Shown: piece by piece, positions 7,354-52,900 of the stretch
How the letters are laid out: each line of letters begins with the position of its first letter
Numbering within the stretch: the stretch's first letter is position 1
NCBI GenBank assembly: GCA_014871385.1
Contig: CM026429.1
Location: forward strand, 8,495,342 to 8,559,341
Direction: 5' to 3'
DNA length: 64,000 nucleotides
From: Ceratodon purpureus
Lineage: Eukaryota; Streptophyta; Bryopsida; Pseudoditrichales; Ditrichaceae
Notes under the pieces: model-generated
What the model was told of the DNA's origin: nothing
Databases searched by the model: none
Seen by the model: only the letters and a program-made list of their open reading frames with translations
Program-made: the position numbers and the translations under genes

Positions 7354-8425
7354 GCTTCATTCCACCTTTGGCAATTCCTCCTTCTCAAGCAGACTTTGGC
7401 TGCTGACCACCTTATTCTGCAATTCGGACTTGAATGTTATCCTTGAAGATTGCAATTGTCAGGTAATTTAAGACACCTTATGTGCATTATGGCAATGAAA
7501 ACTATTTGTGTGCATTGCTGTTTGGGTATCAGGTTTGCAAGAGTGACATCCCTACGAAGATGTTGTACGGGGCCTTGCTGAGGATCCGAAGCTGTCATTT
7601 GCACAGAACTACGAAGACACTGTTATGCCGCCTGGCTTGGCCGGGTGTTGGAGTTACCCGATGCGAGGATCATCCTGAACTGAAGTGACCCTGTGTTCGG
7701 TACTGGCTAACTGTAGAACCTGGAGTGGATAGCACGATTACCCTTCTTAGTTAGAATTCGCATGCCAAGACAGGGTTCCCTTCAAAAGTAGCCGCTGAGA
7801 GACCAGCTGAACAGGGTTGGAGATGCTCGTAATCCTATGGTGTCCTTTCTCTGTGAAGGTAATCTGAGTATGCGTGAGCTTTTGCTCCAAGATTCCTTGT
7901 GTTAGTGAGCGTATGAACCAAGGGTGTTCTTCCCTGGAATTTAACTGTTTTTCAAGTTCTAAGACTCTGGAGATACCCAGCCTTTGTCACTGTGTGTGTG
8001 TTCAACGCTTGGCTTTGAGTCAGTGTTTTTGTGCAATTAATCTACGTGTAAGTTCGATCATACATCACAATACTAGGCCATGTGTTTGGGTTTAAACGAG
8101 AAGTCAGCTGGAGTCACTTATGGGGTGCTGAAAGAGGAAAAGGAACCCGGAATGGACACTGAACATCACCATGTCCGTTCATTTCGTGGGTTCACGTCTC
8201 TTGTTCATCAATATCTAGAGGTGTTATTTGGAAAACACTTGACGCTTAAATCTTGTCGACGTGGTGCTACCTTTCTGTTGGGGATCGGTCCAACCGTCTT
8301 TATTCTCAGAACTACAGACATCGTCTTCGATGTCCTGATATGCAATCTTTTAAAAAGGCAACATATGCTTCACATAAGGATGTCCAAGTGCCAGTTAGTG
8401 TTAGACGATTTTTGAATATGGTTAA
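7354..8425 (+). pseudogene. Broken inverted copy of the RRP6L3-like exonuclease gene
   Basis: This stretch reads, on the + strand, as a degraded copy of the gene at 180-4878. It matches intron 1 (7354-7530), exon 2 (7530-7665 and 8070-8210), the start of intron 2 (to about 8265), and then jumps to the end of intron 11 (about 8310-8425). Because introns are present, the copy arose from DNA and not from mRNA. About 400 bases of unrelated sequence (7670-8068) interrupt exon 2. The Exo I stretch survives as MDTEHHHV, but no complete exonuclease frame does. The sequence diverges from its source by scattered substitutions, so the copy is not very recent. No function is expected. Confidence 0.85.
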
Positions 8426-8470
8426 GTGAGTCTGTTGGCATAACTGAGCTAATCCACGTCTGTTCGCAGT

Positions 8471-11007
8471 GGCTGGAATACGTGCATATATGTATGAATG
8501 GTACGCATACCAAGGTGGACCTCGCACTCCAGAACATGTTTCAACCGCAAATGTGATATTTGTTGAAGATGAGTGAGAATTGGTCGAGTGACATGATGAC
8601 GGGACGTAGTTGCTTGGATATCTCTGTTCAGGGCTGCTTTGAAGCTGAAAAGAGGACTCTTGCGTGAAACGGTGTTGAGGTCTCCAGTCCTGATCCGAAA
8701 GGAGACATGCCACAGCATTGAAGAAGGACCCTACACACCGCAGTGCTTTTAGCTCAGAAATATTTCTCTCGAGTATAGAAGGGTGATTTAACAAACTGAT
8801 CTGCATGCCGGAGATATGAGGAGGAAAAAATGAATCAGATGTAGAGCTGCAGCTATGAAGCAGTGACCCTGAGTTGGGGATCCAGGAGATTGGCTATAAA
8901 TTTCCTGGAGCTGACGTCGGAGTTCCGGCTGTGATTACAGATGCATAAGTTACTTGGAGTGATAAATCTGCATTAATAGGCGATGATGAATATGTTGGAT
9001 GGTGGTGGCACTTGGGCAGTGTTGATGAATAGTGGTTTTGGTGTGGGATAGTGGTGGTGGTGGAATAATGATTGTGCCATAAGGATTGGCAGATGAAGGG
9101 GGAGGGTGGAGGTACAAGAGGGGCCTGATGAGAGGGGAGAAGCATACCTTTCTCGGCCTTTTGGCTAAGATCAAGTGTAGTATCTGTTCTTATCAGTTTA
9201 ATATCTGATACGAGGCTCATCGAGCCTCATGATATTAATCTAATTTTTCTCGGGTGCGGGTCCATCCGGCAGCTTGCTGCCCGGACCCGCGCGCGTCGCC
9301 TTGGTATTGCACTACCTCCTTGGCTGGCGCAGCCCTCCCCCTCCTCCAGGAGGGACCCAATACAAATTCCAAACAGCAATTGCCTCGCTAAAAGCAAACT
9401 TGAACCTATGTTGAAACAATCAAATACATAGAAATATGTTTTCATACTTTTGTTTCTGTATCCTTGAAATTTCTTGATTCTTTGGTTTTCTCCTTTCGAA
9501 TCACTTGTGAACAAACCTACTACTCAACCACAACATTTGGAACTTTAAGAAATGTTTTGGTAATTTTTTATTCTTAGAACACAATTCTCTTCATATTTGG
9601 AATGGTTTCAAATATTTCAGCCCACGGTTTGGAATTGTCAATGCTTTTGAGAAATGGGTCCCCATCTTTTTAGTTAAGATTCAAAAATTTCTTTTTCTTT
9701 ATGACATTAGGCATACGGAATTTGTTTGTTATTTTTTTCATTTTAAACTTCAAGATTAGATATCGACCTGTTTTTAGATCGCATGGATGTTTTAGATGAG
9801 TTTAGAAAAAAATAAAAAATGAGTATTACCAATAATTAGAACCTATGTTCCTTTCACAACTTCTTTCCCAATGCTACACCTTTTTTCTACCTCTTAAATT
9901 TAATGGACAAGTAACTAACATCATGCATATTATATTAGGATAAAAAAAACTATGTTTTTCCCTTCAAGTCCTATGATTAAACTCTATGATCTTCTAACAT
10001 GTGCAATCAAATCTATTGAAATGTTTTGGGCATGATCTTTAAGAAGTCTTAGCTATAGCCATGCAATTAGATCTGCAAAGAAAGCTTTAATTTTGGTAGT
10101 TAGAAATGCAAAGATAGCTTTAATTTAGGTTGTGTTACTCTTGCTTTAAAAAATGACAATTGTTTAGAGTGATTTTGGTGAAAAATGGTCACGGCCAATT
10201 AAGGAATAATAAGAAGATTAGTAGACAAAAAATTTATCATCAACAACAAAATTTGTCTCTATAACCAATTTGTAAGGATTTATAGAGTAATGATACAATA
10301 TGATCAATGTACATGGCCTCACTAGAGGTCGATATTGGTACTTTAACTACTAATTATTTTGAGATAGGAAAGAATGCATCCTTTATATTTGAGACTTGTA
10401 CCGTGATGTGGTTATATTATTATATGAAGAATTTGTAAAGTAGTAGTTATGAAATTATTAGCGGTGAAAATAGTAATTGAGGCGACCTTAACCCCTAAAC
10501 TTCTAAAGGCCTTCGAAACCATATTATGTTTGTAGGACTTTTAGGCGGGCTATTCAAAGGTCTCATTATTTAATTATTTTTTGAAATTTTTATTATATAT
10601 AGCTTTCAACGATAGCTTTCCAATCGCGCTAATTTCAAAGCATTTGGAATTACAATACAAAAGTTAGAAGAATGTGCTCTAAATTTGGGTAGCCAATGGC
10701 CAATCATAATCTTCCAATTTCTACCAAAGTTGCTTGTCATTGACAAGAGCAGAAAGTACCAAGTCTCAATTTCAAAGGATGGGCACTTACAAAATAATGG
10801 GTCTAATATTTTTTCATCCATACAAATTGATGATAATTTTCATCCGATATAAATTTTTCATCTTACTAAATATTTCTATCTAAAGGGGTTGCTGAAATTA
10901 TACATCCAAATAATAGTTATCATCCATAATTCTCTTTACATCCAAAGTATTTTTTCATCCACCAAATATTACATCAAATCTTATTTTTATTGAAGCTTAA
11001 TGAATTT
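8471..11007 (+). repeat. Left arm of a 2.5-kb near-perfect inverted repeat
   Basis: This is the left arm of a palindrome. Position x pairs with 22137-x through most of the arm, and the pairing continues inward to 11007. In the outer part I found one substitution near 8691/13446 and one 2-base length difference near 8660/13480, so the pairing sum becomes 22135. The arm ends at 8471, where GGCTGGAATA starts to match the right arm. It contains a U2 snRNA gene. From about 9500 inward it is strongly AT-rich. Every open frame longer than 70 codons in the inner part has an identical mirror-image partner in the other arm. I compared sampled segments, not every base. Confidence 0.97.
9144..9339 (+). 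ncRNA. U2: U2 spliceosomal snRNA, left palindrome copy
   Basis: The sequence begins ATACCTTTCTCGGCCTTTTG, the invariant plant U2 5' end, and has the branch-point pairing GTAGTA. The IIa stem uses GAGGCTC-ATC-GAGCCTC in place of the usual seed-plant pairs, so the stem is kept by compensatory changes. A U-rich Sm-like site (AATTTTTCTC) follows. A 3' stem pairs GCGGGTCC with GGACCCGC, and a terminal stem includes the TGGCTGGCGCA typical of plant U2. I set the 3' end at 196 nt by family length. No canonical plant upstream element (RTCCCACATCG) or TATA was seen at about -70/-30, so activity is uncertain. Transcription would run toward the palindrome centre. Confidence 0.92.
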
Positions 11008-11129
11008 CATCTAATATCTATGACGTGGAAAGGCATCCATCCATAGGACCTCCTTTTATCAAAATTGCCTTTCAATATAAAAGAAAAAAATACAATTTAC
11101 ACTTTAAAAAAAAATTCTTGAAATTTGAA
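11008..11129. other. Non-palindromic spacer of the inverted repeat
   Basis: These 122 bases separate the two arms; pairing stops at 11007 and resumes at 11130. The spacer is AT-rich with short poly-A runs. I see no gene, direct repeat or recognisable transposon end in it. Confidence 0.9.
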
Positions 11130-13664
11130 AAATTCATTAAGCTTCAATAAAAATAAGATTTGATGTAATATTTGGTGGATGAAAAAATACTTTGGATGTA
11201 AAGAGAATTATGGATGATAACTATTATTTGGATGTATAATTTCAGCAACCCCTTTAGATAGAAATATTTAGTAAGATGAAAAATTTATATCGGATGAAAA
11301 TTATCATCAATTTGTATGGATGAAAAAATATTAGACCCATTATTTTGTAAGTGCCCATCCTTTGAAATTGAGACTTGGTACTTTCTGCTCTTGTCAATGA
11401 CAAGCAACTTTGGTAGAAATTGGAAGATTATGATTGGCCATTGGCTACCCAAATTTAGAGCACATTCTTCTAACTTTTGTATTGTAATTCCAAATGCTTT
11501 GAAATTAGCGCGATTGGAAAGCTATCGTTGAAAGCTATATATAATAAAAATTTCAAAAAATAATTAAATAATGAGACCTTTGAATAGCCCGCCTAAAAGT
11601 CCTACAAACATAATATGGTTTCGAAGGCCTTTAGAAGTTTAGGGGTTAAGGTCGCCTCAATTACTATTTTCACCGCTAATAATTTCATAACTACTACTTT
11701 ACAAATTCTTCATATAATAATATAACCACATCACGGTACAAGTCTCAAATATAAAGGATGCATTCTTTCCTATCTCAAAATAATTAGTAGTTAAAGTACC
11801 AATATCGACCTCTAGTGAGGCCATGTACATTGATCATATTGTATCATTACTCTATAAATCCTTACAAATTGGTTATAGAGACAAATTTTGTTGTTGATGA
11901 TAAATTTTTTGTCTACTAATCTTCTTATTATTCCTTAATTGGCCGTGACCATTTTTCACCAAAATCACTCTAAACAATTGTCATTTTTTAAAGCAAGAGT
12001 AACACAACCTAAATTAAAGCTATCTTTGCATTTCTAACTACCAAAATTAAAGCTTTCTTTGCAGATCTAATTGCATGGCTATAGCTAAGACTTCTTAAAG
12101 ATCATGCCCAAAACATTTCAATAGATTTGATTGCACATGTTAGAAGATCATAGAGTTTAATCATAGGACTTGAAGGGAAAAACATAGTTTTTTTTATCCT
12201 AATATAATATGCATGATGTTAGTTACTTGTCCATTAAATTTAAGAGGTAGAAAAAAGGTGTAGCATTGGGAAAGAAGTTGTGAAAGGAACATAGGTTCTA
12301 ATTATTGGTAATACTCATTTTTTATTTTTTTCTAAACTCATCTAAAACATCCATGCGATCTAAAAACAGGTCGATATCTAATCTTGAAGTTTAAAATGAA
12401 AAAAATAACAAACAAATTCCGTATGCCTAATGTCATAAAGAAAAAGAAATTTTTGAATCTTAACTAAAAAGATGGGGACCCATTTCTCAAAAGCATTGAC
12501 AATTCCAAACCGTGGGCTGAAATATTTGAAACCATTCCAAATATGAAGAGAATTGTGTTCTAAGAATAAAAAATTACCAAAACATTTCTTAAAGTTCCAA
12601 ATGTTGTGGTTGAGTAGTAGGTTTGTTCACAAGTGATTCGAAAGGAGAAAACCAAAGAATCAAGAAATTTCAAGGATACAGAAACAAAAGTATGAAAACA
12701 TATTTCTATGTATTTGATTGTTTCAACATAGGTTCAAGTTTGCTTTTAGCGAGGCAATTGCTGTTTGGAATTTGTATTGGGTCCCTCCTGGAGGAGGGGG
12801 AGGGCTGCGCCAGCCAAGGAGGTAGTGCAATACCAAGGCGACGCGCGCGGGTCCGGGCAGCAAGCTGCCGGATGGACCCGCACCCGAGAAAAATTAGATT
12901 AATATCATGAGGCTCGATGAGCCTCGTATCAGATATTAAACTGATAAGAACAGATACTACACTTGATCTTAGCCAAAAGGCCGAGAAAGGTATGCTTCTC
13001 CCCTCTCATCAGGCCCCTCTTGTACCTCCACCCTCCCCCTTCATCTGCCAATCCTTATGGCACAATCATTATTCCACCACCACCACTATCCCACACCAAA
13101 ACCACTATTCATCAACACTGCCCAAGTGCCACCACCATCCAACATATTCATCATCGCCTATTAATGCAGATTTATCACTCCAAGTAACTTATGCATCTGT
13201 AATCACAGCCGGAACTCCGACGTCAGCTCCAGGAAATTTATAGCCAATCTCCTGGATCCCCAACTCAGGGTCACTGCTTCATAGCTGCAGCTCTACATCT
13301 GATTCATTTTTTCCTCCTCATATCTCCGGCATGCAGATCAGTTTGTTAAATCACCCTTCTATACTCGAGAGAAATATTTCTGAGCTAAAAGCACTGCGGT
13401 GTGTAGGGTCCTTCTTCAATGCTGTGGCATGTCTCCTTTCGGATCGGGACTGGAGACCTCAACACCGTTTCACGCAAGTCCTCTTTTCAGCTTCAAAGCA
13501 GCCCTGAACAGAGATATCCAAGCAACTACGTCCCGTCATCATGTCACTCGACCAATTCTCACTCATCTTCAACAAATATCACATTTGCGGTTGAAACATG
13601 TTCTGGAGTGCGAGGTCCACCTTGGTATGCGTACCATTCATACATATATGCACGTATTCCAGCC
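11130..13664 (-). repeat. Right arm of a 2.5-kb near-perfect inverted repeat
   Basis: This is the mirror copy of 8471-11007, 2 bases shorter because of the length difference near 13480. The outer border is at 13664, after TTCCAGCC. Beyond it the open frame that starts inside the arm continues without a break to 13766. In the left copy the same frame is cut off at the border. This suggests that the right side is the original locus and the left arm the added copy. It contains the second U2 gene on the minus strand. Confidence 0.97.
12798..12993 (-). ncRNA. U2: U2 spliceosomal snRNA, right palindrome copy
   Basis: This is the exact mirror of the U2 gene at 9144-9339, reading from 12993 down to 12798, so all U2 features of that copy are present. 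The two genes point at each other, about 3.5 kb apart. No plant snRNA upstream element is visible on its 5' side (12994-13090), where the sequence is instead Pro/His/Ser-codon-rich. Either copy could be an expressed variant or a full-length pseudogene. Confidence 0.92.
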
Positions 13665-15839: not shown

Positions 15840-18779
15840 AGCCTATTTGCTAGTTTTTGAATAATTATCATAGTTAAGGTAATGGTGCTGAAAACTAATC
15901 AAATTTCAGATTTGGCAAGTATATTGTGGAGTGGTGAAGGGTATATTTTTAGAGGAATCTGTAAAGTTTGTGGGATGCCGGGGATGATGGAATCATAATT
16001 TTCGAACTCTTTTTGAATTAATTCTGAAATTTTGAATGTAAAATCATAGGGGTTTCCAAAACCAATCACCCTAATATCTAGCTCACTTGTACATTACGTT
16101 TTGGAGTTGGAAGCTAGAATCTAGCTTTCAAGTGATTGCCCCTACTAGTTGGTTATTGGTACTGATTGGTTTTGAGTACCATTACTTTATTGTTATTAAA
16201 AAAAATCAATCTTTTTTAAATTTTGTTAGGAAGAGAGAAGTGATTTTAGTCCGTTAATGATAGATTTTTGGACACTATATGAATAAATTATTATGAGTTT
16301 TTAAGATGTTTATTATATGTATGTTGAATTCCAAATGTAGACTTTCATGTTTAGTAAGTATACACTATTGTCTGCATTATTTATTAGGTTATGGTGATTT
16401 ATTTTGACATGGAAATGTCTAAAATAGGCAAAGGCTTGGAAATACGCTAGTTTATAATTTGATTGTGCACATATACGAAGTTACATGGAAGTTCTTTTAG
16501 TGTACCTATGAAAAGGAGGAAGGTATAAAATATAGGATGGTTTAGATGGTTTTGAAGGTTTGGATGGTATAGATGGTTTAGATAGTTTAGATGGTTTTGA
16601 AGGTTTGGATGGTATAGATGGTTTAGAAGGTTTATATGATTTAGATGGATATAGGAAGTAATTGAAGGCTTGAAGTGTAATTTCTATCTTTATTTTGGAC
16701 ATGTAAGAGATAAGATTTATTATGTAATTTTATCTTTTATTTTACTTGTAAGACAAATCTTTGTTCTTTTAGTTTGTAAATGTTGGAGGATATAGATGAT
16801 GCCAATATATGTTATAATATGTACATTTTATAATTGTAAGAGATCAAGGTGCGTTTTTTCTTGGATTAACATAATAAAATTAATTAAAAGCATGATGTCC
16901 TAGAGTTGAAATATAGCTTCAAAGTGTATACGTCTTTGTGTGTTGTAATTTCAATCCTATCTATGAAAAGCATACAAAAAACATTCAAAAAACACAACTT
17001 TCCAATTTTAGAATTTGATATGAAGGGAGATGTCAAACAATTATTGATCTAGTGGTTAGATTGGTTTTTTCTTTGTTTTTCCAATGGTTTGTATTGTATG
17101 TGGAAAGTCTCCGTCCTTCAGTTGTGAAGATTATACAATTAAATAAGTTATAACATTATTATGCAAGAAATACGGTTGTGCAAAATCTCATCACATTTCT
17201 ATCTAGAATTGTTGACTCAAACGTGAGGAGTTTTAAGCTTTCTTTGGCATTTACCATACTTCCTTTACAATAATTGTATTGTAGCCAAACTACCTAAAAT
17301 TTTATAGACTGCAACTCGTTATGCAACTTGAATTGGTCGCTATTACCCACTACAAACATTGTTTGTGTTTTATCTCTTACTAGATATTTCTTGCATTGAC
17401 AACAACTATTAAATTTAACTTTACTTTATCTTACTCATAATCAACTTGTAAGACATTAGTATAAATTTACAATGTAGTGATTTATCATATCTTGCAATAC
17501 TATTGCACATATGTTTTGCCCATATTATATGGATATGAGACTAATGGATGTTCCAAATGGATATAGATCTAAGATACCGCAAATGGACGGCCAAAGCAAG
17601 CTTGCGTATAAGCCCTCAATATCCCCCCTTCTTTTGTGTATACAACTCCACTTCAAAAGTTAAATCTCTTTGATTAAATTAATGAATTCACACATTTTTA
17701 CACTTTCTCTTAAAATCTCATATTTTATGATACAAATATTGGACCATTCCAAATCCTTAGCTCTTACATCAAACCATTATCGCTTTGCCCAACAAATTTG
17801 ATTCATATGATTTTCATCAGTTCTAGAAGGTGGTTGAAGCTATAAAATTCAAAAGTAAATAAGATCAACGACAAAAATTCTGTTATCATTGTTTAAGTAC
17901 AGTCTACGACAAATCAATTTACAAGTTTTATTGTATAAACGCTTTCACTTTGATCATTTTTGCCTTACTTGATGGATTTGACATGCTTCATTATTCTTCG
18001 AGAGTAAAATATTAATAAATACAAAGGGCTATGTACTGACTCTTTTAAATCCCGTTTTACATTAAAAAAACATAACAAATAAATAAAAAAACTTGTCAAT
18101 ATTGATAGATAGCTCTATTCTTGCAAAGACAACATTCAAAGTATCCTTTAACAACAATAGTGTTATTTAATAATTCAATAGTGTAATATCAAACAACAAC
18201 ACTACAATTTAAAACATGATACATTAGTTTAAGATACATGGTAGTACAATTTTTTTATCACAATGAAAATACACCTTCTCCAAGAAAATATAATTCAATA
18301 AAATAATCCACAATAATTTACTTGTTGTCAATAATAGAATGAATTGACGTCCTTTCCCTACTCATTGATGGCAATACCATATATCCTAGAATAGCGCTTT
18401 ATGCCAAGGATCGCCATCTACTACAATACCATAGCGAGTTCATCCAAAGATATTCACAAAAGATTGAAATATGAAAATTAAAATTCTAAAAAAATAAAAA
18501 TAGAAATTGCTAATAAAGAAATAGAACTATCCCAAACCACTTAAATTCATAAAGAGTAAGTTTTTCAAAAAACACAAAAATCCATCAATCACCTTTGGAG
18601 AAACAAACCGTATTTTTTAAAAATAAAATTAAAATATTTGCCGTTCACAACAATGAACATAGAGATCCGGAACTTAATAGTTAGTTAGCCAAATGAAAGT
18701 ACCAAATTACAAATTTGATTTTGGAAATTTAGGATTTTTTTCGGTTCAAAACCTAAATCTTACCTTAAATCATATCACT
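15840..18779. other. AT-rich gene-free region
   Basis: About 2.9 kb of AT-rich sequence has no open frame worth naming and no RNA gene I could recognise. It includes a short tandem repeat at 16535-16648. Decayed transposon DNA is likely but no ends or domains are visible. Confidence 0.6.
16535..16648. repeat. Short degenerate tandem repeat (GGTTTAGAT-like)
   Basis: The segment is built from variants of GATGGTTTA and GAAGGTTTG, a period near 9 bases. A longer block of about 50 bases (TTTTGAAGGTTTGGATGG and following) occurs twice. The Ser-Pro-Lys-rich minus-strand frame across it is a by-product of the period, not evidence of a protein. Confidence 0.75.
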
Positions 18780-19416
18780 ATCACCCAAGTATCAACCAAG
18801 TATCACCCAAGTATCACCAAAGTATAACCCAAATATCACCCAAATATCATCCAAATATCAACCAAATATCAACCAAATATCAACCAAGTATCAACTAAGT
18901 ATTAGCCAAGTATCACCAAAATATCATCCAAGTATCACCCAAACATCATCCAAGCATCACCTATGCATCACTCAAGCATCACCTGAGTATCACCCAAACA
19001 TCATCCAATCATCATCAAAGTATCACCCAAACATCATCCAAGTATCAACCAAGTATCATCCAAGTATCACCCAAACATCACCAAAGTATCAGCCAAACAT
19101 CACCAAGCATCACCTGAGCATCATCCAAGCATCATCCAAGCATCATCCAAGTATCATCCAAGTATCATCCAAGTATCACCCAAGCATCACCAAAGTATCA
19201 GCCAAACATCACCTAAGCATCACCTGAACATCATCCAAGCATCATCCAAGTATCGTCCAAGTATCACCTGAGCATGATCCAAGTATCATCCAAGTATCAC
19301 CCTAGTATCACCCAAGTATTAACCAAGTATCACCCAAACATCATCCAAGTATCACCCAAACATCATCCAAGTATCACCCAATCATCACCCAAGCATCACC
19401 CAAGCATCACCCAAGC
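18780..19416. repeat. Minisatellite of 11-bp units (ATCACCCAAGT)
   Basis: About 58 units of 11 bases run head to tail. The consensus is ATCACCCAAGT, with frequent ATCATCCAAGT, ATCAACCAAGT and ATCACCCAAAC variants. One strand is C-rich and contains almost no G outside AAGT/AAGC. Because 11 is not a multiple of 3, the open frames across it are incidental. Confidence 0.95.
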
Positions 19417-27183: not shown

Positions 27184-30100
27184 CTACAACGTAATCAACT
27201 CACAACAGTCCTCCTTGTGAACTCGTTGCAAAATTGACCGTCCACTCTCAGCATCTTGCACGAGGCGTAGAAACCCACAATCATTTGCTTCCACCACTCG
27301 CAGTTCCTTCAAATCTCCGCGCACGGAATAATATTGGTTGACATCGTCGTAGAAGTACCAAGAAGGATCACAATAATTTCTGTCCAAAACAATTAGACAT
27401 GATCCTGAAAGATTGGTGACGGAAGTGCATCCCCAAATGCGAAGGCCTGGCAACACTCTCAGCACACCCAAACCCTCCAGGCTGCCACAATCCAATATTC
27501 CCAACCACACCAGCGCACTCAGCTGCCTGAGAGACTCCGGGAGTGCCTGCAACTCACCGCACCCCTCAATGCTCAAAACCTCAAGCCTGGACAAGTGGCC
27601 GATGGACTCCGGGAGCTTGGTGAGGGATCTGCAGTGCGCAATCGATAGGTATTTCAAACTCGTGAGGGCACCCAAACAATCAGGCAGAGTCTCCAGGCTG
27701 CTGCAGCTTCTCAGGGTCAGTGTCGTGAGCAGTTTGAGTTGTCCGATGCAGTTGGGGAGCTCCCGCAAGCTCTCACAACGCCATAATACGAGCCAGTCCA
27801 GATTCGTGAGAAGTCCGATGGTGTGAGGGAGCTTGCTCATGGCCGGGCAGTCACGAAACTGAAAGTCGGAAAGGTGGTGGAGATGGGCGAGTGAACTCTT
27901 TCTATCGAGCCATGCGATTCCCTCGTCATTGCAGTTGTTTACTATGAGTATTTTGAGCCCGTGGAGTTGTCCAACAGCGACTGCTTGCCATTCAGTGGCG
28001 AGGTCTGTACTAAACACGGTAAGGCCCGTCATGAGCCCCATTGTTTCTGGCACCTTGGACATGGATGTGCACTCGTCTATGTAAAGCTCTTGCAACCGAG
28101 GCAGGGCAGTGATGGAATCCGGCAATGATTCAAGGCTTTCACAATCTTGTAGATGGAGCAATTCTAGTTGTGAGAGTTGTCCAATCGTACTTGGCAGTTT
28201 CTGTAGATTCTTGCATCCAAATAAGTCCATTACTTGAAGTTGAGATAATTGCCCTATGGAATCAGGGAGAGTAGTAATTGATGTGCATCCTTTCATATAA
28301 AGATTGAGCAAGTTTGGGCAACCCTGGAAAATAAAAAGTAAAGGGACGTCAACTAAATCATTTGTTGTACTTTAGAATATAATATTAAATTTGGGCTATT
28401 AAAAAAATATAAGTTTTAGTTCCTATTATTATTACATTTAGTCATTTAATCAAATGATTTTTGTTTTTGTTATTATTACTACAAGTATACTTGAACATAA
28501 CATAGTTCTAAAAAGGGAAAATATATACAACATAACATACCTCTAAAGCTGGATTTGAATTTGCCCATAAATCAGGTACCTTGATAGTGTAAGAAAAGTC
28601 CAAGGATATCAAGTTGGTAAGATTCAATATGGGAGGTGGTTGAATCATTGGCATATCCCTCCATCGCAAACACCGTAGTTTCTTAGAGATAATTGTATGG
28701 TCGCCATTAACAAAGCAACCATCCAATATGAGGAAATGTAGATTGCTCATCTTTGTAAAGTATAGAGATTCTACTTCATGCTGTCCACCATTTGCCAAAT
28801 TGAGTGCCCTCACTTTCATTGGCCTCTGATTCATTACATCAAAATGTACATATTCAAAAAAGAGCTTGAAATAAATGATCAAATAGCAAAAACATAGAAA
28901 CTATATCTATTTCACATAAAAATAACCCTGTACTATGCTTTGATCATATTTTCATTCCATAAATCAAAGTCTATATCTAAGTTGTATTTCAACATTACGA
29001 AAGGTCGTCAAACCCAATTCAAATACTCTCCTTAAATGTACCACTTCATCACTTTGACATAATAGAAAAACTTACTTGATTGATGGCTTCCACTATACTT
29101 GTGGCTCTCTCCACCCATATATGACTTCCGTCATCCATTCCTACATACCTTCCCAATTCTTGTAGCAGGCCATGCATGGCTAAAACACCTCCACGTCCTC
29201 TTCCGTTGGTCATATCAATGACAACCAACGACTTGTCTATCAACTTCGCCAAAGATGTATGAGGTGTCCGTACACCACAACACAAAGATTCTTTGCAACT
29301 TTTCCAAATCTCCATGGCCTCGTTCTTGAACCATCCACAAAATATGCACGCTATATCTAAGAACATCATCTTTTCTTGTTTTGATAGGCAATTATAGCTC
29401 CATCTCAAAACATTCATGACATTGGCATCTTCTCTCAATGCGTCCACTGCCTCCAGCCATATGCATTCCAAATCCTCATTTGATTTCTTGTCAATCAAAC
29501 TTGAACCAATTACCTTCAATGCTAGTGGCAAACCCCCACATGCTTTGCTCACATCATTGGCTATTGCCTTGAACTTCGGAGGAACTTCACCATTCCCAAA
29601 TGCATGCAAGTTGAACAACTGTAGAGAATCATCACTCCTCAATGGTTTCACTTCATGAAGGAAAAAGTTGCATTCTCCACCAATTGCCTTCAATACGTGT
29701 CGATCGCGAGATGTAACAATAATGCAACTCCCAGAAGCAAGAAGGCCCATGTCAAGAATAACTTGATCAAACTCACTTCTCTCGTGCAAATCATCCAAAA
29801 CAACCAATATTGGCCCTTGACATGATATCTTACCAAACCAATGGTTATAGCTTTCTTCATTCTTGTCCTGTACATGGAAAATATCCCAAAGTAGTTGCTT
29901 TTGCAACCTCTTCAAAAAACTTGATCCACCCTCCTCTATTTGTAAGAAACTCATAGCTTGAAACTTCTTGCAACCAACAAAATGGTTGTAAATTGCTTTA
30001 GCAAGAGTGGTTTTTCCAATTCCACCCATACCAATAAGGCCCAACAATCTTGTAGGACCAAACATCAACTCCCCCATCATTAAGATGCATGCATTCATTT

Positions 30101-31144
30101 GATCTTCGACACCCACCAAGTGGTGCTCAATTGGCACGGGCTTAACTCTCCATGTGAAGCTCAATACAACATCCACCACTTCTCGTTTCAGCTCTGCTTC
30201 ATTCCTACAATAAACAAGTAAATCACATTCCATTAGTTTCATATATTACAGTCCTTCATTGAGTATATATCTTCTTTTCAAACTAGAATAAACATTACAA
30301 CAAAATGAGGAGTTTCTAGGATGAATCTTCAACTAAAACACAACATAGGTCATTAACAACTTCCTTTTAATATAAATGCTTCCCTCCTTCCCTTACTCTG
30401 ATCATATATGCTGCAAACACATGTCCATTAAAAGGAAAGCCTTGGCCGCTACATTATTTTCTTACCATGTAAAACTTCCAACTCTTTCTTCCCTAACTTT
30501 TTCAAGAAACCATAATATAGCTAGAGCCCTTGAAGTGCAATCCACAAAAAAAGAATTTGGAGAAGTTTCAAAACAGACATGTCTAATTGTTTTGCACAAA
30601 CTAGGAAAGAATCTTACCCCTTGTAATCAGAGAGACGGAAGCAAAACCCGGTGATATCCGCCAATTCCTGAAGCGCATCCCTCCACTCCTCCACTTGCTG
30701 CAGCGTTCTCTTCAACTTGTGTTTCTCAAATGCAGCTGCAAATGGGCCATTCTCCACCCACCGCAAGTTCACAGGCTCCACCTCATAGTACACAGGAATT
30801 ACTGGTTTTCCGCTCCTCATCATGGCCACCAGTTCATTCAGGCAATACTTCGACTCTGCGTACCCTTTCGAGATAACTGCAACATGGATCTTCGCCACCT
30901 CCAGAGCGGCATTTATGGACCCGAAAGCAGGATGCCCCTTCCTCAAGGATGCCTTGTCCAGAAACGGATTCAACCCAGCAGTCCGAAGTGCCTCGTCCAA
31001 ATGGGATATGAAGCCAGCTTTCACATCAGGCCCACGGTGGTTCAGGAACACGTCGTAATCCACATCCGTCGCTGCAAATGAAGAAGAGCATTGGCCTCGG
31101 TGCCGTTTGCGAGGCCGCGAGAGTTCGAGAGACTGATCGTCCAT
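27184..31144 (-). CDS. TIR-NBS-LRR (TNL) immune receptor, 4 exons
   Basis: This is a complete intracellular immune receptor of about 1026 residues. Exons are 31144-30618, 30204-29076, 28825-28541 and 28323-27184, all closing in frame. The TIR domain is about residues 25-170 (DYDVFLNHRGPDVK, LNPFLDKASLRKG, FAAAFEKHK), with the catalytic-type Glu region SKYCLNELV. The NB-ARC domain shows P-loop GMGGIGKTT (about 234), kinase-2 ILVVLDDL, RNBS-B CIIVTSRD, GLPLAL, and FLDIACIFCGW. The expected MHD motif reads MHG. Residues 553-1026 form about a dozen leucine-rich repeats of the plant LPDSIGQLSQLQ type. TNLs sense pathogen effectors and signal through TIR NADase activity. The exon order TIR/NB/LRR is typical. 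Its 3' end has been partly duplicated downstream. Confidence 0.95.
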
Positions 31145-31540
31145 GGCTGCACTAGTTTCCGGTCACGACCATGTCTTCGGGAGAAAGATGGTCACATGGA
31201 GAGCCACCTTGGTCGCACAGTTGCACTACACCAAACCCTGCCGACAGTATGATGAACAGTGCTGGTGAACAGTTCTGTGCTAGGGAATCAGCACCACCTT
31301 CACCTGGTACCCCTTCTCCGATCTGTGCATACACCAGAGAAGCAATTTAATACTCTGCATCTACGACTCAGCAATGTAAATCCTTTTAGCGTCAGTAGGA
31401 TTTCAATTGATAAGTGGCCTCTCATCTCAGAAGATGCACATCACTCGTGAGGATTATTTCTCTATCTCTTACAAAAATGTGTACACAATGGCGAGTACCA
31501 AGACGGGGATGAATAAATTACAAAATGTCCAAAATCTTAC
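31145..31540. other. TNL promoter region / breakpoint next to CRAL-TRIO fragment
   Basis: These 396 bases lie between the TNL start codon and the last CRAL-TRIO exon. I looked for the continuation of the CRAL-TRIO domain and did not find it. The segment should contain the TNL promoter and a rearrangement breakpoint. Confidence 0.5.
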
Positions 31541-43181: not shown

Positions 43182-44159
43182 ATGAAGCGAAAGTTTGAGT
43201 TCGATGAGGAGATAGCAGAGTGTCCCCTCTGCAACGAGTTCCTCTCCCCACCAATTCACCAGGTAATTTGTGTTTTCTAGAAAAGCCACGCAGAGTTGTA
43301 ATTGGTATTGTCATTCTGGTCCTTTTGTTTTGTCATTCTGGTTCTTTTGGTTTTGGTCATTCTTTTCTGTAATGTGAGAGGAAACAACTTGTTCTGTGTG
43401 CTTGCGTGCGAGCGAGGTGTGATCAACTAGTGAGGAATCTAATGAGGATGGTTATTTGGATTGCAGTGCAAAAATGGTCACTTGGCATGTAAGGATTGTT
43501 GTGAGATGCTCAAAAGGAAAGAATGTCCCACCTGCCGTGCAAAGCCTTTTGCCCATTCACGAAACTTAGGATTGGAAAAGATGATAGAATCCCTTCAAAG
43601 TGCTTGCGTGCATGCTCCGTACGGGTGCACCGAACTGGTGAAACTCGAAAAAGAGAAACACGTAGAAGATGCATGTGATTACCGTCAATTCAGATGCCCT
43701 GTAATGTCATGCAGCTACACGGGACCCAAGCGCGAAGTCCCCGAGCATTTCAAGACTTTACACAATGCTTCAGTTTTTCGAGATCCGTACGGAATTCGAA
43801 GGAGACAATTCTATGTCCAATGGAGAAAGAAATTGCATCATATCGTATTCGTGTTAGACACGGAGCTCTTTCTTGTCCACATTCATGAAGTCTCTGAGGT
43901 ACCCCTTCTAGTTGGAAAGTGGAGTTATAATCATCGCGTCATCATGTTTGGCTGCTCGTCATTTGGAAACGATTCCTTGAAGTACAATATCGAAATAACA
44001 GTGAAGAGCAAGGAGGGAGTGTCATCGACTTCTAAATTGGATGATGCTTTGGCCTTCAACAATCAGACCATTGGACATATTTGGGGCGAGGATAATTTTA
44101 TTCTTCTGCCGAATGTGAACCCGACATCAGAGTTAACTTTGAGGTTGAATCTTTTGTGA
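43182..44159 (+). CDS. SINA/SIAH-like RING E3 ubiquitin ligase, 2 exons
   Basis: This 257-residue protein has the arrangement of seven-in-absentia ligases, which bind an E2 enzyme through the RING and select targets with the C-terminal domain. Exons are 43182-43262 and 43467-44159. The RING starts CPLCNEFLSPPIHQ (C14, C17) and continues CKNGHLACKDC and CPTC. The intron falls just before the third zinc ligand, as in many plant SINA-like genes. A SIAH-type zinc finger follows (CVHAPYGCTE, HVEDACDYRQFRCPVMSC, HFKTLH). The rest (about residues 140-257) fits the substrate-binding domain but is shorter than in classic SINA proteins, so it belongs to the divergent SINA-like group. An upstream in-frame ATG at 43065 exists; I prefer 43182 because it begins the conserved region. 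Confidence 0.9.
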
Positions 44160-46127: not shown

Positions 46128-49100
46128 TTATAGCGTCAGCTCCGTAGGAAGGCAAGGTAACCTTCGGATTGAAGCACCTAGCAGCCGCAATTTTTGATCG
46201 AGTCTCTCATACCCACGATCTATATGGCCAACTCCCTCTATATGTGTCGTCCCATCGGAAGACATTCCCGCCAAGACAAGAGCTGCTCCTGCCCTTAAGT
46301 CAGTTGCCAATACAGGCGCTCCGTACAGTGAACTGCAGTTACATAGATTGTATACGTGAGACCAAAGGGGTTGTACATTCTGTTAAAACATTCGCCGCAA
46401 AAATAAGTGCATATGGAGGTAACCTGAGATGAATAGGCTCATTTACGGGCTCAGATAAGCGATTACGAGGTGCTAGAAGAATCTTACAAAATAAACATAA
46501 AATTCATTGGTAAACAAAGAATCCCTAACTACTCAGGTCTATGTTCATTCCTCACGCTATTTTCATGAGTAGTGCAGGCAAGGCCCAACTTCAATAGCAT
46601 TCAAAACACATGAAAAGAAACGTGCTGTATAAATTACCTGCCAGTGTCCTTGCCGTTTATGATAGCAATGTTCCGACTCACTTTCACTTGGGCCCCAAGC
46701 TTCTGTAATTCCTCCGCTGAACAATCACATGCAATGCTTATTAAGAAATGCCACTTCACCAAGGATAGCAGAAAGGGAGAAAGTGAAATGAGGAGAAGAA
46801 CATTTTATAAGAACATCAAACATACCGTGACGCATGCGTCCTTCAAAAACTGTTTCTTCTATTAAACTTTGACCACTGCAGGTAGTGAGAAGGGACATCA
46901 GCTGCGGCTGTAAGTCAGTAGGGAAGCCTGGATAAGGAAGGGTCTTCACTTCGCAGCTCCTAAGCACCTCATTACAACTTATCTGCAGACATAAAGCCTC
47001 AAAATATTGAGAACTAGGAAGATTAATAGAATAGGGAAGTGCATGCCAGACAACAAATGACGCACAGATTACGTTATCCTGATAAACCTCAAAGGACGTA
47101 TTCGGAAAACAAAAGCATCCTTTACTCTGATGACCAATCATGAAGTATGTGATCTTAACAACTCTACTTCAAAGGTGCAGCTCATTGAAGATAATCAAAG
47201 CAGATACAATGGAAAAAAACAAAAGGAGATGATGACAAAAACGCACCTGGAGAGAGTTCCACCTTGTTTGTTGAACTCGGCAACCAATCGAGCGAAGTTT
47301 CTCAACCACTGATGTCAGATGTTTGGGAATGACAGGGCTCATGGATATTGCAGATCGAGTGATTGCTGCAGCTATTAAGAAAGTTCCGGCCTCAATTCGA
47401 TCTGGTATAATTTTGTACTCCGTACCATGAAGTTTTCTTGTCCCTGTAATGCTCAAAGTGTTGGTTCCAGCTCCTTTTATAAACGCCCCACACGAAATCA
47501 AGAAATTCGCGAGATCAACTACTTCTGGTTCCTGCATGCCAGACATTTGAAATTTAAGACATGACGTATCGAACTTTGACACAGTTAAATCAACCTCTGA
47601 AGGACCTAAATACTCACAGGTGAGACGGACGTGACACACCTACGAGAAGATCAAATCTCTCATACTCATTAAGACGCCCCCAGAGACTTTTAGTGTTTCA
47701 AATTACAGCATGGAACGATTGTGAATTCGACCACTTCGAAATGAACTACTATTACAGCTATGAATGACCTGCTCTATGTTTTCATCCTTTCCATGTGAAC
47801 AGAGTAGAACTGAGGGTTGGACTTCAAAGCATTTATCACATTCACATTTTATAAACTTCATGTCTTATACACCAATTTTTAAATTTCAAAACTTCATTAG
47901 TAAAAACCTACATGATTTCCATTGCAGCACTAATTTCAGCACCTACATTGAATAGGCGGATCAAAAAGTATCATCACGTCGACCTTTGATACTTGAAATC
48001 AAACAGACAATTGCAGCTTTCCAACTTCCTAAATGATCAGCACAACAAATGCCTTGCCTGCCTGCATTTGAAACGTAATTTAGGAACAAACTTCATACTA
48101 GTCACGCGAATTATTTTGTAACGTGTATTATATTTTTACTCCAAGCAACAAATGAACGAATATGAGAATATACTTCTCGTAAGGTTAGTTGTTAAATCGC
48201 GGATGAGAAATATGAATACTCTATCATTGAAACATGCAAAATGAGATCCACCAGGCATACCTGAGCGACGTTAGACAACGTACTGTGACCGTCCGCGAGA
48301 GCTGCCGCCATCATAAGTGTCTCTGTGGCACCCACACTTGGATAATCCAGACAAAAATTGCCACCAATGAGATTTCTTCCGTTCTGTGCCCGAGCGTAGA
48401 CTTTGCCTTGCCTGCGAAAACGTGGATCTGTGAGTGACCCACACACCATTCTTTGCAATTCTTTCTCGACTTTAGACTTACATCTCTCGTGTTGAGTGAC
48501 AAACCCTGACGACATGCTCGCCTTGAACCAAAGCGACCTACCTTGTTTGCTAAAATAGCTTGTAACACCGGGCGTAAACATTTCAGATCCAGGATCTTAG
48601 ATTTACCACAGAGAGAAAATGCTCCTAAAAGAACCCGGGCTAGCTAAAATCAGTTCTAACGTGTCAGCTATATGACAAGTATCCTCAACACAATTAAGAG
48701 TGTCGGGCCGCTTTGATCGACTATGCTTCATTACTTGATTAATGTGACAGTTTTCTGAATTTGGTTAAGTTGTATTGCAGAGCAATGTGAAAGGTACCTT
48801 ATTTCAACCTTGGCGCCTAGGGCTTCTAGACCGCGAACATGGAGATCAATTGGACGTGCTCCGATATTACAGCCTCCTGGCAATGGCACAACAGCCTCTC
48901 CTCTCCGACCCAAAAGGGAACCGATCACAAAGAAGCTTGCCCGCAGCTTACGCACGGCCTCCGCACACGGCTCTACTGATGTCAAATCCCTTGCATCGAC
49001 CATAAACCCACTCGAAGTCCTCTGTACACTGACCCCTACGGACTGTAAAACTTGGAGCATACGCCGAATGTCATGAAGATCTGGAATCATCTGAAGATGA

Positions 49101-49921
49101 ACTTGCCCTTCTGAGCATATCGCACCCGCCAGAATTGCAAGAGCGGAATTCTTTGCGCCCGAGATTTGCACTTCACCAGAGAGACGTATTCCTCCTTCAA
49201 CTTCAAAGCATTCAACCAGCTGCGCTGGCCGAAAGGGACTCACCTCAGTATGCTTTCCTAGACCAGGAACAGAATCCTTCGAAGGAGCTAGCGTATGAGT
49301 TCCGTTGGTGCTTCTGCTTCCATGTTCAGTCCTATGCAAAGCTGAAGATTCAATGTAGCTGGCGGATGGTAATATTACAGCCCCAGAAGTATCTGAGGGT
49401 ATGTTGCTCCCAAAAGTCTCGACTAAAACCTCCGAAGCAACTCCATTCTCTACCCCGCAAATCGGAGGCACGCATGTTTGTTTCCTACCCTTAAAGAACC
49501 CGTCAAAAAGCTTCGATTTCCTTACATTAATGCTGCTACGCCCAACCCTAAACCTAGACGAAGCAATGCTGCACGATTTCCCACCATGAGAACTTAAACC
49601 CTTTACTCCAAGAATTCCCTGCTCTTCCTCAGAAACTCTAGCAATGGCTGTCCCAATCTCCTGCGCCGGACCACCACACCCCGCGTGATTGTCCCACAAT
49701 AGAGGCCGCCTAATATCCAATTTCACCAAAGAATGTGAGGATCGAAACCCCTCAAGAACAGCTTCACAAGCCTCCCTCTGCAAATTCTTCTGCTTCCGAG
49801 AATATGCACAGTAATGCGTTCCAGAAACCCTCCCGTTCCTTACGCAGCTGGAAGCCTCACGAGGAGACAGCAGCTCACAAGACCTCCTGGCGAAATTGGC
49901 GGGCGCCCGGAAAGCCTCCAT
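46128..49921 (-). CDS. MurA: MurA, UDP-N-acetylglucosamine 1-carboxyvinyltransferase, plastid type, 6 exons
   Basis: MurA transfers enolpyruvate from PEP to UDP-GlcNAc, the first committed step of peptidoglycan synthesis. In mosses Mur genes act in chloroplast division and the plastid wall. Exons are 49921-48798, 48411-48261, 47531-47247, 46982-46826, 46716-46638 and 46332-46128, giving 666 residues in frame. The core starts near residue 237 and matches bacterial MurA throughout: the Lys of SGAKNSA (K257), RASFFVIG, the active-site Cys of [12 protein letters not shown] (C351, the fosfomycin target), FPSVGATE-type DYPSVGATE, the catalytic Asp of [10 protein letters not shown] (D543), and [14 protein letters not shown] plus HIDRGYERL near the end. 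The roughly 236 residues before the core are Ser/Arg-rich and low in structure. They should include a chloroplast transit peptide but are longer than one usually is. Confidence 0.96.
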
Positions 49922-52900
49922 AGCCCCGGAGCCCCACTCCTAATCCCCGAAACCTCTTCCAACACTGCCTCCTCAGAAGCCCCCGAACTCCCTTCAGATT
50001 CAATCACCACAACCGACGACCACATACTCGGATTCAATCACCCTGCACACCACTATCATAAAAAAAACACCGTCACAAATTGGGTATCACCTAAATCTGC
50101 TCCCAACTCAGCTCAAGAAAAAAAAAAAAAACTCTCCACTCCCAAATCTCACACCGCCATACAACACATGAACATAAAACCATTTCACATCAAGACAGAA
50201 AATTGGGTAGAAAGAATTCTCATCATACCTTGCAGTGCAAATTGAAGAACACTATAAAACTCGCCAAGGCACAACTTCATTGTACAAAAGCACCATCTCC
50301 ACGATCTCCATCTCCATCTCCATCACCATCTCCACGATCTCCATCACCCGAGGATCATTCCCAGCCATCACCAATACTCAAAATCTGAGTCCCACCGGAA
50401 TCCTCGTAACAAGTTCAGCAAGAGCTCCAACAAGATCAAGACTGCGGGAAACACAACCAGATGAAGAACATGATGACACTATGCAATCGACACTTGCTGG
50501 AAATCCTGTCGTGGATCCAGAGCACCAATTACACATGCCAGCATGCGATAATGTGGTAAATTCCACACAAAATGGTCATCTCAACTGTTTTCACTTAGGT
50601 CTGCGAAGGTGAATGAGAGTAACTTAAATCGAGTTTGTGGGGATCTGGTCATGGCGACATGAAGCGAGGCTCGTGATGCGCACGGATCCATAACCGGAGT
50701 CGCCATTGACACAGTCTCGGCGAACCAACACTTCTGGTCGAGGAGGTGTATCGAAAAGCGTTATTGGACCCGTCACGGGTGGTATCTTCGGACAGAGCAG
50801 ATTTTGGTTTCTGGAATCTCGGGGGGAGGACAGTGTTGGGTTTTGCGGGGGGTGTTGGGTTTTAGGTGCCTCTTCGTAGCCGTCGTTTAAAGAGAAACTC
50901 GCAATATCTTCGGTTGATGTACATTCCAGTGGGTTGAAAATCTAGATGTTTGGGCTTCATGTACTTAGCGGTTCTGGCTATCGGGCGCTCAGATATTTAC
51001 CGTCTCTAAATAAGATACAACTGGTATCTACCGTCGATGTACATTAGTGTTCACAGAAGAAAATCTCCGTCGTGCGGCTTTGGGTACTGTGACGGTTCTG
51101 GGTACCCGAGAATGTTTCGTTCCTATTTTCAAGCTCTCTCAAGAAATTTCGTTCACCTGACATGGGCGTGTTCCATGCATGGATTGGACGTTTCGTTCTA
51201 GTTTCGTCCGAGGAGGAGTTCTGTAAAGCGCGCCAAGAATTCATTTTCGTTGCTTCGGGGCTTTGTCGTTATGGTTTGGAATGTAGCGTTCGTCGAGGTG
51301 TCATTTCTCGTTCATCGGATGCGGGAATTCTGTTGGCAGGTCCCAGAAGGCTGGTTTTTATTGGACGTGAAAAATCGATCATCGATTGTTCATCCACTTG
51401 TCGAACTTTCGAAGCTGACTTGCTGAATATTATTTGAATATTCTATCTGCTGCTGAGATTGGGTGGATCCTACCACGGTGTATTGTAAATTCAGTAAGTA
51501 GTAGAGCAACGCTTTTTTTCGTTTATGCAATGGACGAAGGTTTTATTCATCTGTATTTTGTCATATTTTCGTTAAAATGTACATGTTCTCCATCTGATTG
51601 TGCAATTTTTATTTCATTTTTAAAGAAATGTTGAAGCAATTTGGAAAAAAAAATCTTCTTTATCCCTTTAAATTAATATTGTCTTTTGTAAGCAATAATG
51701 TATTTGACAATCTAGCTTTGTTTTGACAAATAAATAAAGGTCAAGGTAATGCACTAACCATGTAGTTTCTACAAACAATAAGACAAATTTTAATCTTCTG
51801 ATAAAAACATATCCTCTAAGCCATCCTATGTGGATAAATTTAAGTAGTATTTGTTAAAATGTTTCTCATTAAATAGCAATGAATAAGTAGTAATTCAAAA
51901 AAAATCAACCATATGTCCGAAACTAAGAGAATGTCAATAATCCTTAAACCATATTTTAAAAGAACTTCAATAGTTTTCATTGAATCAACAAAAAAAATTG
52001 TTCATGATACCTTAATTTATTTTTTCTTTGTCAATCTAAATTTAGATTTAATAAAAAATGATAATATATATTCCTTCTTTTATAAACAAATTTAGTACTT
52101 TAATCAATACGAAACATTATTAAATACCTATCTCATTTTGGTAAACATCAAGCAAAAATTTATGTTGAAAACAAATCATCACATATGGTTATTAGAGTTT
52201 GTCTTTGGAAAAAGACTTTCCCTGTGCCGTATGCTATTGAGGTCATAGTGGGCTTTTGGATTGTACAAAATCCAATAAACTCCTTGTTTGTAACTTTGGC
52301 ATAAGTTAAAAATTTCACTTTTCTTTGCACACATTGTGCCAAAGGTAAATGCTGCAACAAGTGTTCCAGAAAAGAGCACCTGTAGCACAAATGCACATCA
52401 TCTAGTCTACGAAACCATATCATTTTTCACACTGATTAAAATCTGTTATCATAATTTAACACACGGTCCCTTGGTAACACAGACACTGAGCTACAGTAGT
52501 TCTGGAATATCATGCCACCAAACCAAAATTAATGACAAACCGTCACAACTCAGAAATGTTCACACAGTCTACTTTGCACACAAATAGACCACCTGGTACG
52601 ATGTTTAGAACAATGAATGGTTATAAACAATCTCCACGGCCGTCATTTCCTCTGGAGATGTTTCGGTGACCTTCCAGCCCCATTTCTTTGCAGGATTTTT
52701 GTGAGACAGTTGGTGCCAGAATTGAGCGGAGCTCACCCACTGCAGTTGCCCACGACGGTGGTCAATGAATTATGGAAGGGGAAGGTCCTTCCTGGTGCAT
52801 GGAGATGGACCCCGACTCGTCTCGTGCATGTGCCACATGGATTGAAAGATCTCTTGCAAACCTTCTTCCCATAATTCCTCCCTCACTGCCTTCCTTCCCG

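Follow-up and report, generated by a model that had tools for sequence, protein, structure and literature searches.

A near-perfect palindrome around a U2 snRNA gene in the moss Ceratodon purpureus, one of several around multi-copy genes

Long near-perfect palindromes are usually thought to be unstable, or to be special to sex chromosomes. In Caenorhabditis, the F44E5.4 inverted-repeat gene pair has 2207-bp arms that are 99.7% identical around a 126-bp spacer, and such pairs are found both convergent and divergent, with gene conversion proposed for them and persistence between species shown (PMC1803023). Palindromes with gene conversion are described in a 200-kb region of the willow W chromosome (PMC7023750) and, as cited in that paper, on the mammalian X and Y. 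The fold-back inverted duplications among human CNVs have spacers of 766-70,466 bp, are very large and often come with a terminal deletion (PMC3907307). In the moss Physcomitrella, concerted evolution by conversion has been suspected for highly similar neighbouring duplicate genes (Lang et al. 2008, as cited in PMC3045890). In the literature that we searched, mostly outside subscription journals, snRNA palindromes of mosses are not described.

Here we describe a U2 snRNA gene of Ceratodon purpureus that was probably duplicated in inverted orientation together with about 2.5 kb of its surroundings, in a real and recent event. It lies in what we call the window, the whole 64-kb stretch of DNA analysed. 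A near-perfect palindrome here holds an essential small RNA gene, and together with the siblings confirmed by sequence it makes twelve palindromes, spread over six chromosomes of this moss.

The palindrome of the window and its U2 genes

The left arm (8471-11007, + strand, 2537 nt) and the right arm (11130-13664, - strand, 2535 nt) flank a 122-nt spacer (11008-11129). In the self-comparison of the window they appear as two inverted matches, both 100% complementary, one of 2349 nt (8659-11007 with 11130-13478) and one of 188 nt (8471-8658 with 13477-13664); within the 64 kb there is no second inverted repeat of comparable size. The base-by-base alignment bears out exactly, at the same coordinates, the near-perfect palindrome with 2.5-kb arms and a 122-bp spacer reported by the first-pass annotation, as well as the one substitution and the one 2-base length difference which it had placed in the outer 250 bases. 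These sole differences lie within 8657-8691, outside the U2 gene: the CT insertion at 8657-8658 and the T/C difference at 8691. Similarity ends at 8471 and 13664, beyond which the two flanks are unlike each other. An exact inverted match of 2.3 kb cannot be due to chance. The palindrome is confirmed in the sequence, and its arms are more than 99% identical around a spacer that is single at the locus, although the repeat to which this spacer belongs is dispersed.

The two convergent U2 genes announced for the arms were likewise recovered, at 9144-9337 (+) and 12800-12993 (-). The two copies have the same sequence and are full length (RF00004 covariance match, model positions 1-192, 182.1 bits against a gathering score of 46); no other Rfam match in the window reaches its gathering score. 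The fold of the left copy has an MFE z-score of -5.4, and none of 200 shuffles was as stable. A plant-type snRNA promoter combines a USE and a TATA element at a fixed distance. About 70 nt upstream of the left gene lies the USE-like element GTGCCATAAGG (9074-9084, +), and about 32 nt upstream the TATA-like GTACAAGA (9112-9119, +); by arm identity, the right gene has the mirror copies of both, at 13053-13063 (-) and 13018-13025 (-), respectively. When the upstream region of the window gene was aligned with those of 12 other U2 genes (two of the 13 being identical to each other), the USE-like core CCAnA was found at one position in 13/13, and a TA-rich box at an aligned position whose letters vary (GTATAAGA, GGATAAGA, ATACATGT and others, with ATCCCACATCG carried by two identical C11 copies). 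The elements near -70 and -32 of the window gene fit the plant-type layout, with a shared USE core and a variable TATA-like box. Judged from its sequence, the U2 gene of the window looks usable, and this one locus may supply two U2 doses.

Sister palindromes around other multi-copy genes

The 362-Mb genome contains at least six U2 palindromes, whose arms are mostly unrelated to each other. All 12 of the equal-score inverted pairs checked by sequence, out of 18 such axes, proved to be palindromes: six for U2, three for U5 and one each for U1, U4 and U6. They sit on C1, C2, C3, C9, C11 and C13, and none on the giant C6. Equal scores are little informative for U4 and U6, where one score is common to many places and one pair each was sequence-checked. 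A U1 pair on C7 (258 bp at 96%, unequal scores) was rejected as a palindrome. The list of U2 pairs is the same with all 40 matches as without 21 of them (match not cut at the masked start), except for the second gene pair of palindrome C, whose right-hand gene comes from a separate search. Equal-score inverted pairs, candidates by score, exist also for SRP RNA genes and for the light-harvesting genes (PF00504) that served as control protein family. A special link to U2 therefore fails, and a U2-specific cause is rejected, since U1, U4, U5 and U6 genes also lie in confirmed palindromes. The window palindrome is of a known kind and is not special to U2.

It is one of several around multi-copy genes, and at least a part of these arose independently. 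The U5 palindromes C11a and C11c are paralogous (77-89% alike in matched stretches) but differ in the place of the axis: in one it is upstream of the gene, so that the genes diverge, in the other downstream, so that they converge. This opposite placement led us to reject a single inherited ancestral palindrome and to consider that the two formed independently. The U2 palindromes B and D have no homology left near their axes when compared with each other; their paralog on C10 is not palindromic within the 10 kb examined, which would speak for separate origins of B and D.

Among the small RNA gene matches listed, equal-score pairs comprise 18 inverted axes versus 7 direct pairs (P = 0.04), equal scores being a proxy for identity and the axes being merged by hand. 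The top 32 of the 85 PF00504 matches gave 5 inverted versus 2 direct pairs, and all 85 gave 8 inverted axes versus 9 neighbouring direct pairs (hand-merged), so that a general excess of inverted pairs does not hold in this family. Where P values for orientation or pair type include the protein family, they do so with its top 32 of 85 matches. As to orientation, all six confirmed U2 palindromes are convergent, and for the small RNA genes together the hand-merged axes number 14 convergent and 4 divergent (uncorrected P = 0.03). Such figures might be expected of an old palindrome under selection for its structure, for example if convergent read-through gave a dsRNA regulating U2. We regard this as highly improbable, as divergent inverted pairs exist for U5, U4 and U6, and the light-harvesting axes are split 4 to 4 when all 85 matches are taken; a bias to convergent orientation is not claimed. 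The long double-stranded RNA that the first-pass annotation expected from read-through likewise finds no support in this analysis.

Origin of the palindrome and upkeep of its arms

A dispersed repeat of about 627 nt, complete at 10503-11129 (+), stops exactly where the palindrome has its axis. Elsewhere in the genome, the 40 candidates scored out of 782 match the repeat at 76-81%, and its boundaries are marked by the 31 of these 40 that begin at window positions 10488-10510 and the 35 that finish at 11125-11130. The repeat runs unbroken through the left inner arm and the spacer, which is its tail, and its last base adjoins the first base of the right arm; the inverted copy (11130-11634, -) lacks the last 122 nt. 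The unduplicated spacer is thus contiguous with one arm, the left, in the order of the repeat, as fold-back inverted duplication requires. Because only the left arm completes the repeat, axis and polarity together indicate that this arm is ancestral and that the right arm was copied from it in inverted orientation, beginning where the repeat ends. The same one-sided completeness supports the very recent event that had been proposed at first pass. The repeat is not a general cause of palindromes, since the other loci checked by sequence lack it, save for one weak 68% match in both arms of palindrome F. The U5 palindrome C11a gives a similar picture, its spacer having a relative next to a U5 locus at which the main U5 matches share one strand.

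We consider it probable that the window palindrome results from a recent inverted duplication, with arms kept alike by conversion, and that it belongs to a group of palindromes of which at least some are independent. At the far end of the dispersed repeat (11129), a broken or stalled DNA end would have folded back or switched template, resuming on the opposite strand at 11007, 122 nt within the repeat. Copying would then have returned through the repeat and the U2 gene as far as 8471, producing the right arm and leaving the unduplicated loop as the spacer. The fold-back step is what we infer from this geometry; afterwards, gene conversion between the arms has probably preserved their likeness.

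The gene conversion between arms that the first-pass annotation had envisaged is plausible for these palindromes as a group, and its statistical support comes from two sister loci. In the U5 palindrome C11b, 10 differences fall within the outer 740 nt and 0 within 1891 nt (P = 2.5e-5), and differences are also clustered in the outer arm of F (P = 2e-4). Clustering was seen in these two of four tested arms: the 24 substitutions and 5 indels of D are spread nearly evenly (P = 0.06), and the window value (P = 0.02) is post hoc and concerns two differences only, so that conversion, though it may well act there, is inseparable from youth at this locus. The arms could indeed be alike only because they are young, older palindromes decaying or vanishing, with no conversion at all. 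This we hold to be rather unlikely. The two differences at the window, the nearly even divergence of D and the existence of a less similar inverted pair (the U1 pair on C7) agree with it; however, confirmed arms are mostly 98-100% alike, against 15-30% difference between paralogous loci, and differences are clustered in C11b and in the outer arm of F, although nested duplication steps could give the same pattern.

Two further explanations touch the duplication itself. Near-perfect arms around a short AT-rich spacer have the usual look of an assembly or library artefact, such as a hairpin read or a missed adapter. The first-pass annotation had raised this doubt, which now seems very unlikely to be justified: the window arms differ at two places, their outer flanks are unlike each other, and 11 other palindromes were confirmed by sequence, several with 1-3 kb spacers or diverged arms. 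In one of them, F, a single arm contains a 4.8-kb LINE-like element with an 18-nt target duplication; this speaks for a true structure and against an artefact. The recurrence of U2 palindromes and the dispersed repeat at the window axis could instead suggest a foldback-type mobile element carrying U2, an explanation to which we give almost no credence. From one U2 palindrome to another, the arms show no relationship beyond U2 and its near flanks, except that B, D and C10 are old paralogs and that A and F share a weak repeat match. None of the scored copies of the repeat elsewhere forms a mirror pair. The part of the inner arm that lies outside the repeat (9380-10487) matched two places among the 40 scored of 1133 candidates, both in this palindrome; the outer arm (8471-9060) matched its own two places and four partial, old ones at 73-82% (6/6 candidates scored), and the old matches at C5:2289509 (73%) and C10:4924210 (74%) have no scored U2 gene next to them. 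No near-identical copy of the window arm outside the repeat, and no recurrence of the same inverted arms at many sites as in a foldback transposon, was thus found among the scored candidates. With the inner arm confined to the palindrome and the outer matches partial and old, no mobile unit with the window arms is seen, and a mobile element carrying U2 is not supported.

Significance and comparison with known palindromes

The twelve palindromes offer replicate natural experiments on the origin of inverted duplications and the upkeep of arm identity. In practice, short-read counts of these snRNA genes cannot distinguish the arms. A wider proposal is that, in the nuclear genome of this moss, multi-copy genes commonly end up duplicated in mirror image, because very active homologous recombination would collapse young direct repeats but could not delete inverted ones, the surviving palindromes being homogenised arm to arm. 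If true, the uniformity of spliceosomal RNA genes would rest on many palindromes of independent origin and not on tandem arrays. We find this doubtful, the more so because inverted pairs no longer outnumber direct ones on the complete PF00504 list. Gene targeting is feasible in mosses, so the recombination explanation is open to direct test.

Physcomitrella offers, like Ceratodon, moss duplicates with suspected conversion (Lang et al. 2008, via PMC3045890). The human CNV fold-backs resemble the window in having an inverted copy beside the original, an unduplicated spacer and sometimes repeats at the junction, but the window palindrome, with its 122-nt spacer and 2.5 kb, is of another scale and is interstitial (PMC3907307). 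The mammalian X/Y and willow W palindromes share with the moss set highly similar gene-bearing arms, and their signature of conversion has a possible counterpart at two of the moss loci; they are on sex chromosomes, and those of willow are far longer, whereas the moss set is on C1, C2, C3, C9, C11 and C13, not C6 (PMC7023750). The Caenorhabditis F44E5.4 locus comes closest in form, being a near-perfect gene palindrome of the same dimensions, of a kind present in both orientations as in the moss. The Caenorhabditis palindromes persist between species, whereas the moss set is known from one genome, and it carries small RNA genes (PMC1803023).

The window palindrome and the order of its arms

Self-comparison bore out the inverted arms (8471-11007 and 11130-13664) around a 122-nt spacer described in the first-pass annotation, and base-by-base alignment limited their differences to CT at 8657-8658 and T/C at 8691. 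Each arm holds one U2 gene, as also claimed there; both are complete (182.1 bits each), and nothing else in the window reaches the Rfam gathering score. The U2 RNA fold is much stabler than its shuffles (z = -5.4, 0/200 as stable). Upstream of the window U2 lie two promoter-like elements, GTGCCATAAGG (USE-like) and GTACAAGA (TATA-like). Their positions match those in a comparison of 13 upstream regions of U2, drawn from loci both inside and outside palindromes; the USE core is common to all 13 and the TATA-like box is variable. Complete genes, a stable fold and upstream elements at their usual positions make both genes look usable. Two U2 copies on contig C11 (C11:4082654 and C11:4097301) both carry ATCCCACATCG, presumably the plant-type USE; unlike the palindromes, they are direct repeats, 14.6 kb apart.

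The window corresponds to C9:8495342-8559341 in a genome of 362.5 Mb (151 contigs). When 10400-11180 was searched against this genome, 43 matches were listed (40 of 782 candidates scored), three being the window locus itself. The other 40 listed, spread over many chromosomes at 76-81% identity, are copies of a dispersed repeat of about 627 nt; the start falls at window 10488-10510 in 31 of these 40, and the end at 11125-11130 in 35. One complete repeat (10503-11129) consists of the inner 505 nt of the left arm plus the 122-nt spacer. The right arm begins at the end of the repeat and holds it inverted, without its last 122 nt. A repeat that is whole across left arm and spacer, and inverted and incomplete in the right arm, argues that the former represent the old order and that the right arm is the copy. 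An inverted right arm with the spacer as the loop is the outcome to be expected of fold-back priming or a template switch, according to the available part of PMC3907307. Outside the repeat, the inner arm had the window palindrome as its sole match among those listed; the outer arm (8471-9060) matched the palindrome and, with all 6 of 6 candidates scored, had further matches, partial and old, on C5 (73%), C10 (74%) and, twice, C1 (82% over 85 nt).

An older imperfect inverted repeat (4073-4577/7354-8280, 86-89%), ending 190 bases left of the palindrome, may be an old palindrome or transposon terminal repeats. Just outside the left arm, 8323-8472 is a 77% inverted match to 241-382 at the window's left end. 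The window also contains a tandem array of an 11-base unit (18681-19400 and beyond) and several gene-like frames: a resistance-gene candidate (27184-31162) which we take to be TIR-NB-LRR-like, a Sina-type ubiquitin ligase (43446-44159) and an EPSP-synthase-type transferase (46725-49939), both from Pfam, and a candidate at 54785-55897, assumed to be F-box-like.

Inverted pairs across gene families

Genome searches with U2 gave at least 40 and at least 45 scored places. The matches include convergent pairs, and six U2 palindromes, A to F, were confirmed by sequence. A is that of the window. B (C9:8859789-8867120) has arms of 2310 nt, with 2 substitutions in 2245 compared, and a spacer of 2712; C (C2:22776883-22790481) has arms of 5478 nt with two U2 genes each, 0 substitutions and one indel in 5348 compared, and a spacer of 2642. 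D (C3:4352679-4364387) shows 24 substitutions and 5 indels in 4245 around a spacer of 3053, E (C1:5826122-5829763) has about 1.76 kb without differences apart from masked bases and a spacer of about 0.1 kb, and F lies at C2:23985153-23997415. Of 27 U2 places taken to have a canonical start, picked by hand among the matches listed, 14 fall within these six. The two short C1 matches to the window U2 upstream region (C1:7995456-7995540 and C1:8012416-8012500) have equal scores and opposite orientation, 17 kb apart, and one adjoins U2 at C1:8012116; they hint at a seventh U2 palindrome.

Inverted pairs with equal scores and no more than 30 kb apart were grouped by hand according to their axis, which gave 6 axes for U2, 4 for U5, 3 for U1, 1 for U4, 3 for U6 and 1 for SRP RNA. 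Small RNA genes thus have at least 18 inverted axes, of which 14 are convergent and 4 divergent; direct pairs among the matches listed number 7. All 12 of the 18 axes that were fetched are palindromes (six U2, three U5, one each of U1, U4 and U6), some extending past the fetched ends; a U1 pair on C7 with unequal scores was not palindromic when its sequence was examined. tRNA genes (Gln, Asp, Gly) are mirrored in both arms of the U5 and U1 palindromes at fetched loci L066, L067, L069, L070, L072 and L073.

A U2-specific cause was rejected, since U1, U4, U5 and U6 lie in confirmed palindromes and SRP RNA and light-harvesting genes show equal-score inverted pairs. The latter family (PF00504) served as protein control; around C4:2613989 (C4:2597460-2630518) its genes are mirrored to the base, two per arm. 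Its 85 matches in all comprise 8 inverted axes against 9 neighbouring direct pairs, and therefore no excess of inverted pairs. Base-perfect mirroring was also seen across 79 kb at C4:5111321-5190422, where each side has a single gene, matched in two pieces.

Artefact, independent origins and gene conversion

The strongest witness against the palindromes being artefacts is F. Its left arm is interrupted by a 4.8-kb LINE-like element (L057:3416-8226; C2:23986915-23991725), one long open frame with reverse transcriptase (RVT_1) and RT zinc-binding (zf-RVT) domains. An 18-nt duplication flanks the element inside a tRNA-Lys gene, presumably in the A-box region, and this tRNA is intact in the right arm; the element is possibly a tRNA-gene-targeting LINE. 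The arms are otherwise 99.9% identical over 904 and 1483 nt, and their outer 793 show 95% with indels.

U5 loci C11a and C11c are paralogous, their matched stretches being 77-89% alike; the axis lies upstream of U5 in C11a, with divergent genes, and downstream in C11c, with convergent genes. Judged from this sequence layout, the two palindromes are of independent origin. The C11a spacer has a relative (89%) upstream of another U5 locus (C11:9.03 Mb) that has its main U5 search matches all on one strand, so the spacer seems part of the old order, as at the window. B and D are paralogs (flanks about 68-83%) of a C10 locus, which has no palindrome in the 10 kb fetched.

The first-pass annotation had raised ongoing conversion between arms. 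The longest difference-free run was compared with random placement along four arms, picked after viewing the difference profiles, giving P = 2.5e-5 for the U5 palindrome C11b, 2e-4 for the outer arm of F, 0.02 for the window arms (two differences) and 0.06 for D. The low values make gene conversion likely at some sister loci (C11b, F), and at the window it is unproven. Nested duplication steps could also be the source of clustered arm differences.

Neighbouring duplicates are mostly parallel in vertebrates (72-94%), Arabidopsis (about 80%) and rice (88%), according to the accessible part of PMC2547482, so this moss may differ, on small counts among the matches listed. The window palindrome is real and of an already known kind, and its interest lies in its siblings across several gene families within one moss genome. 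Its closest precedent, as far as the available portion of PMC1803023 describes them, is the Caenorhabditis inverted-repeat gene pairs (F44E5.4 locus).
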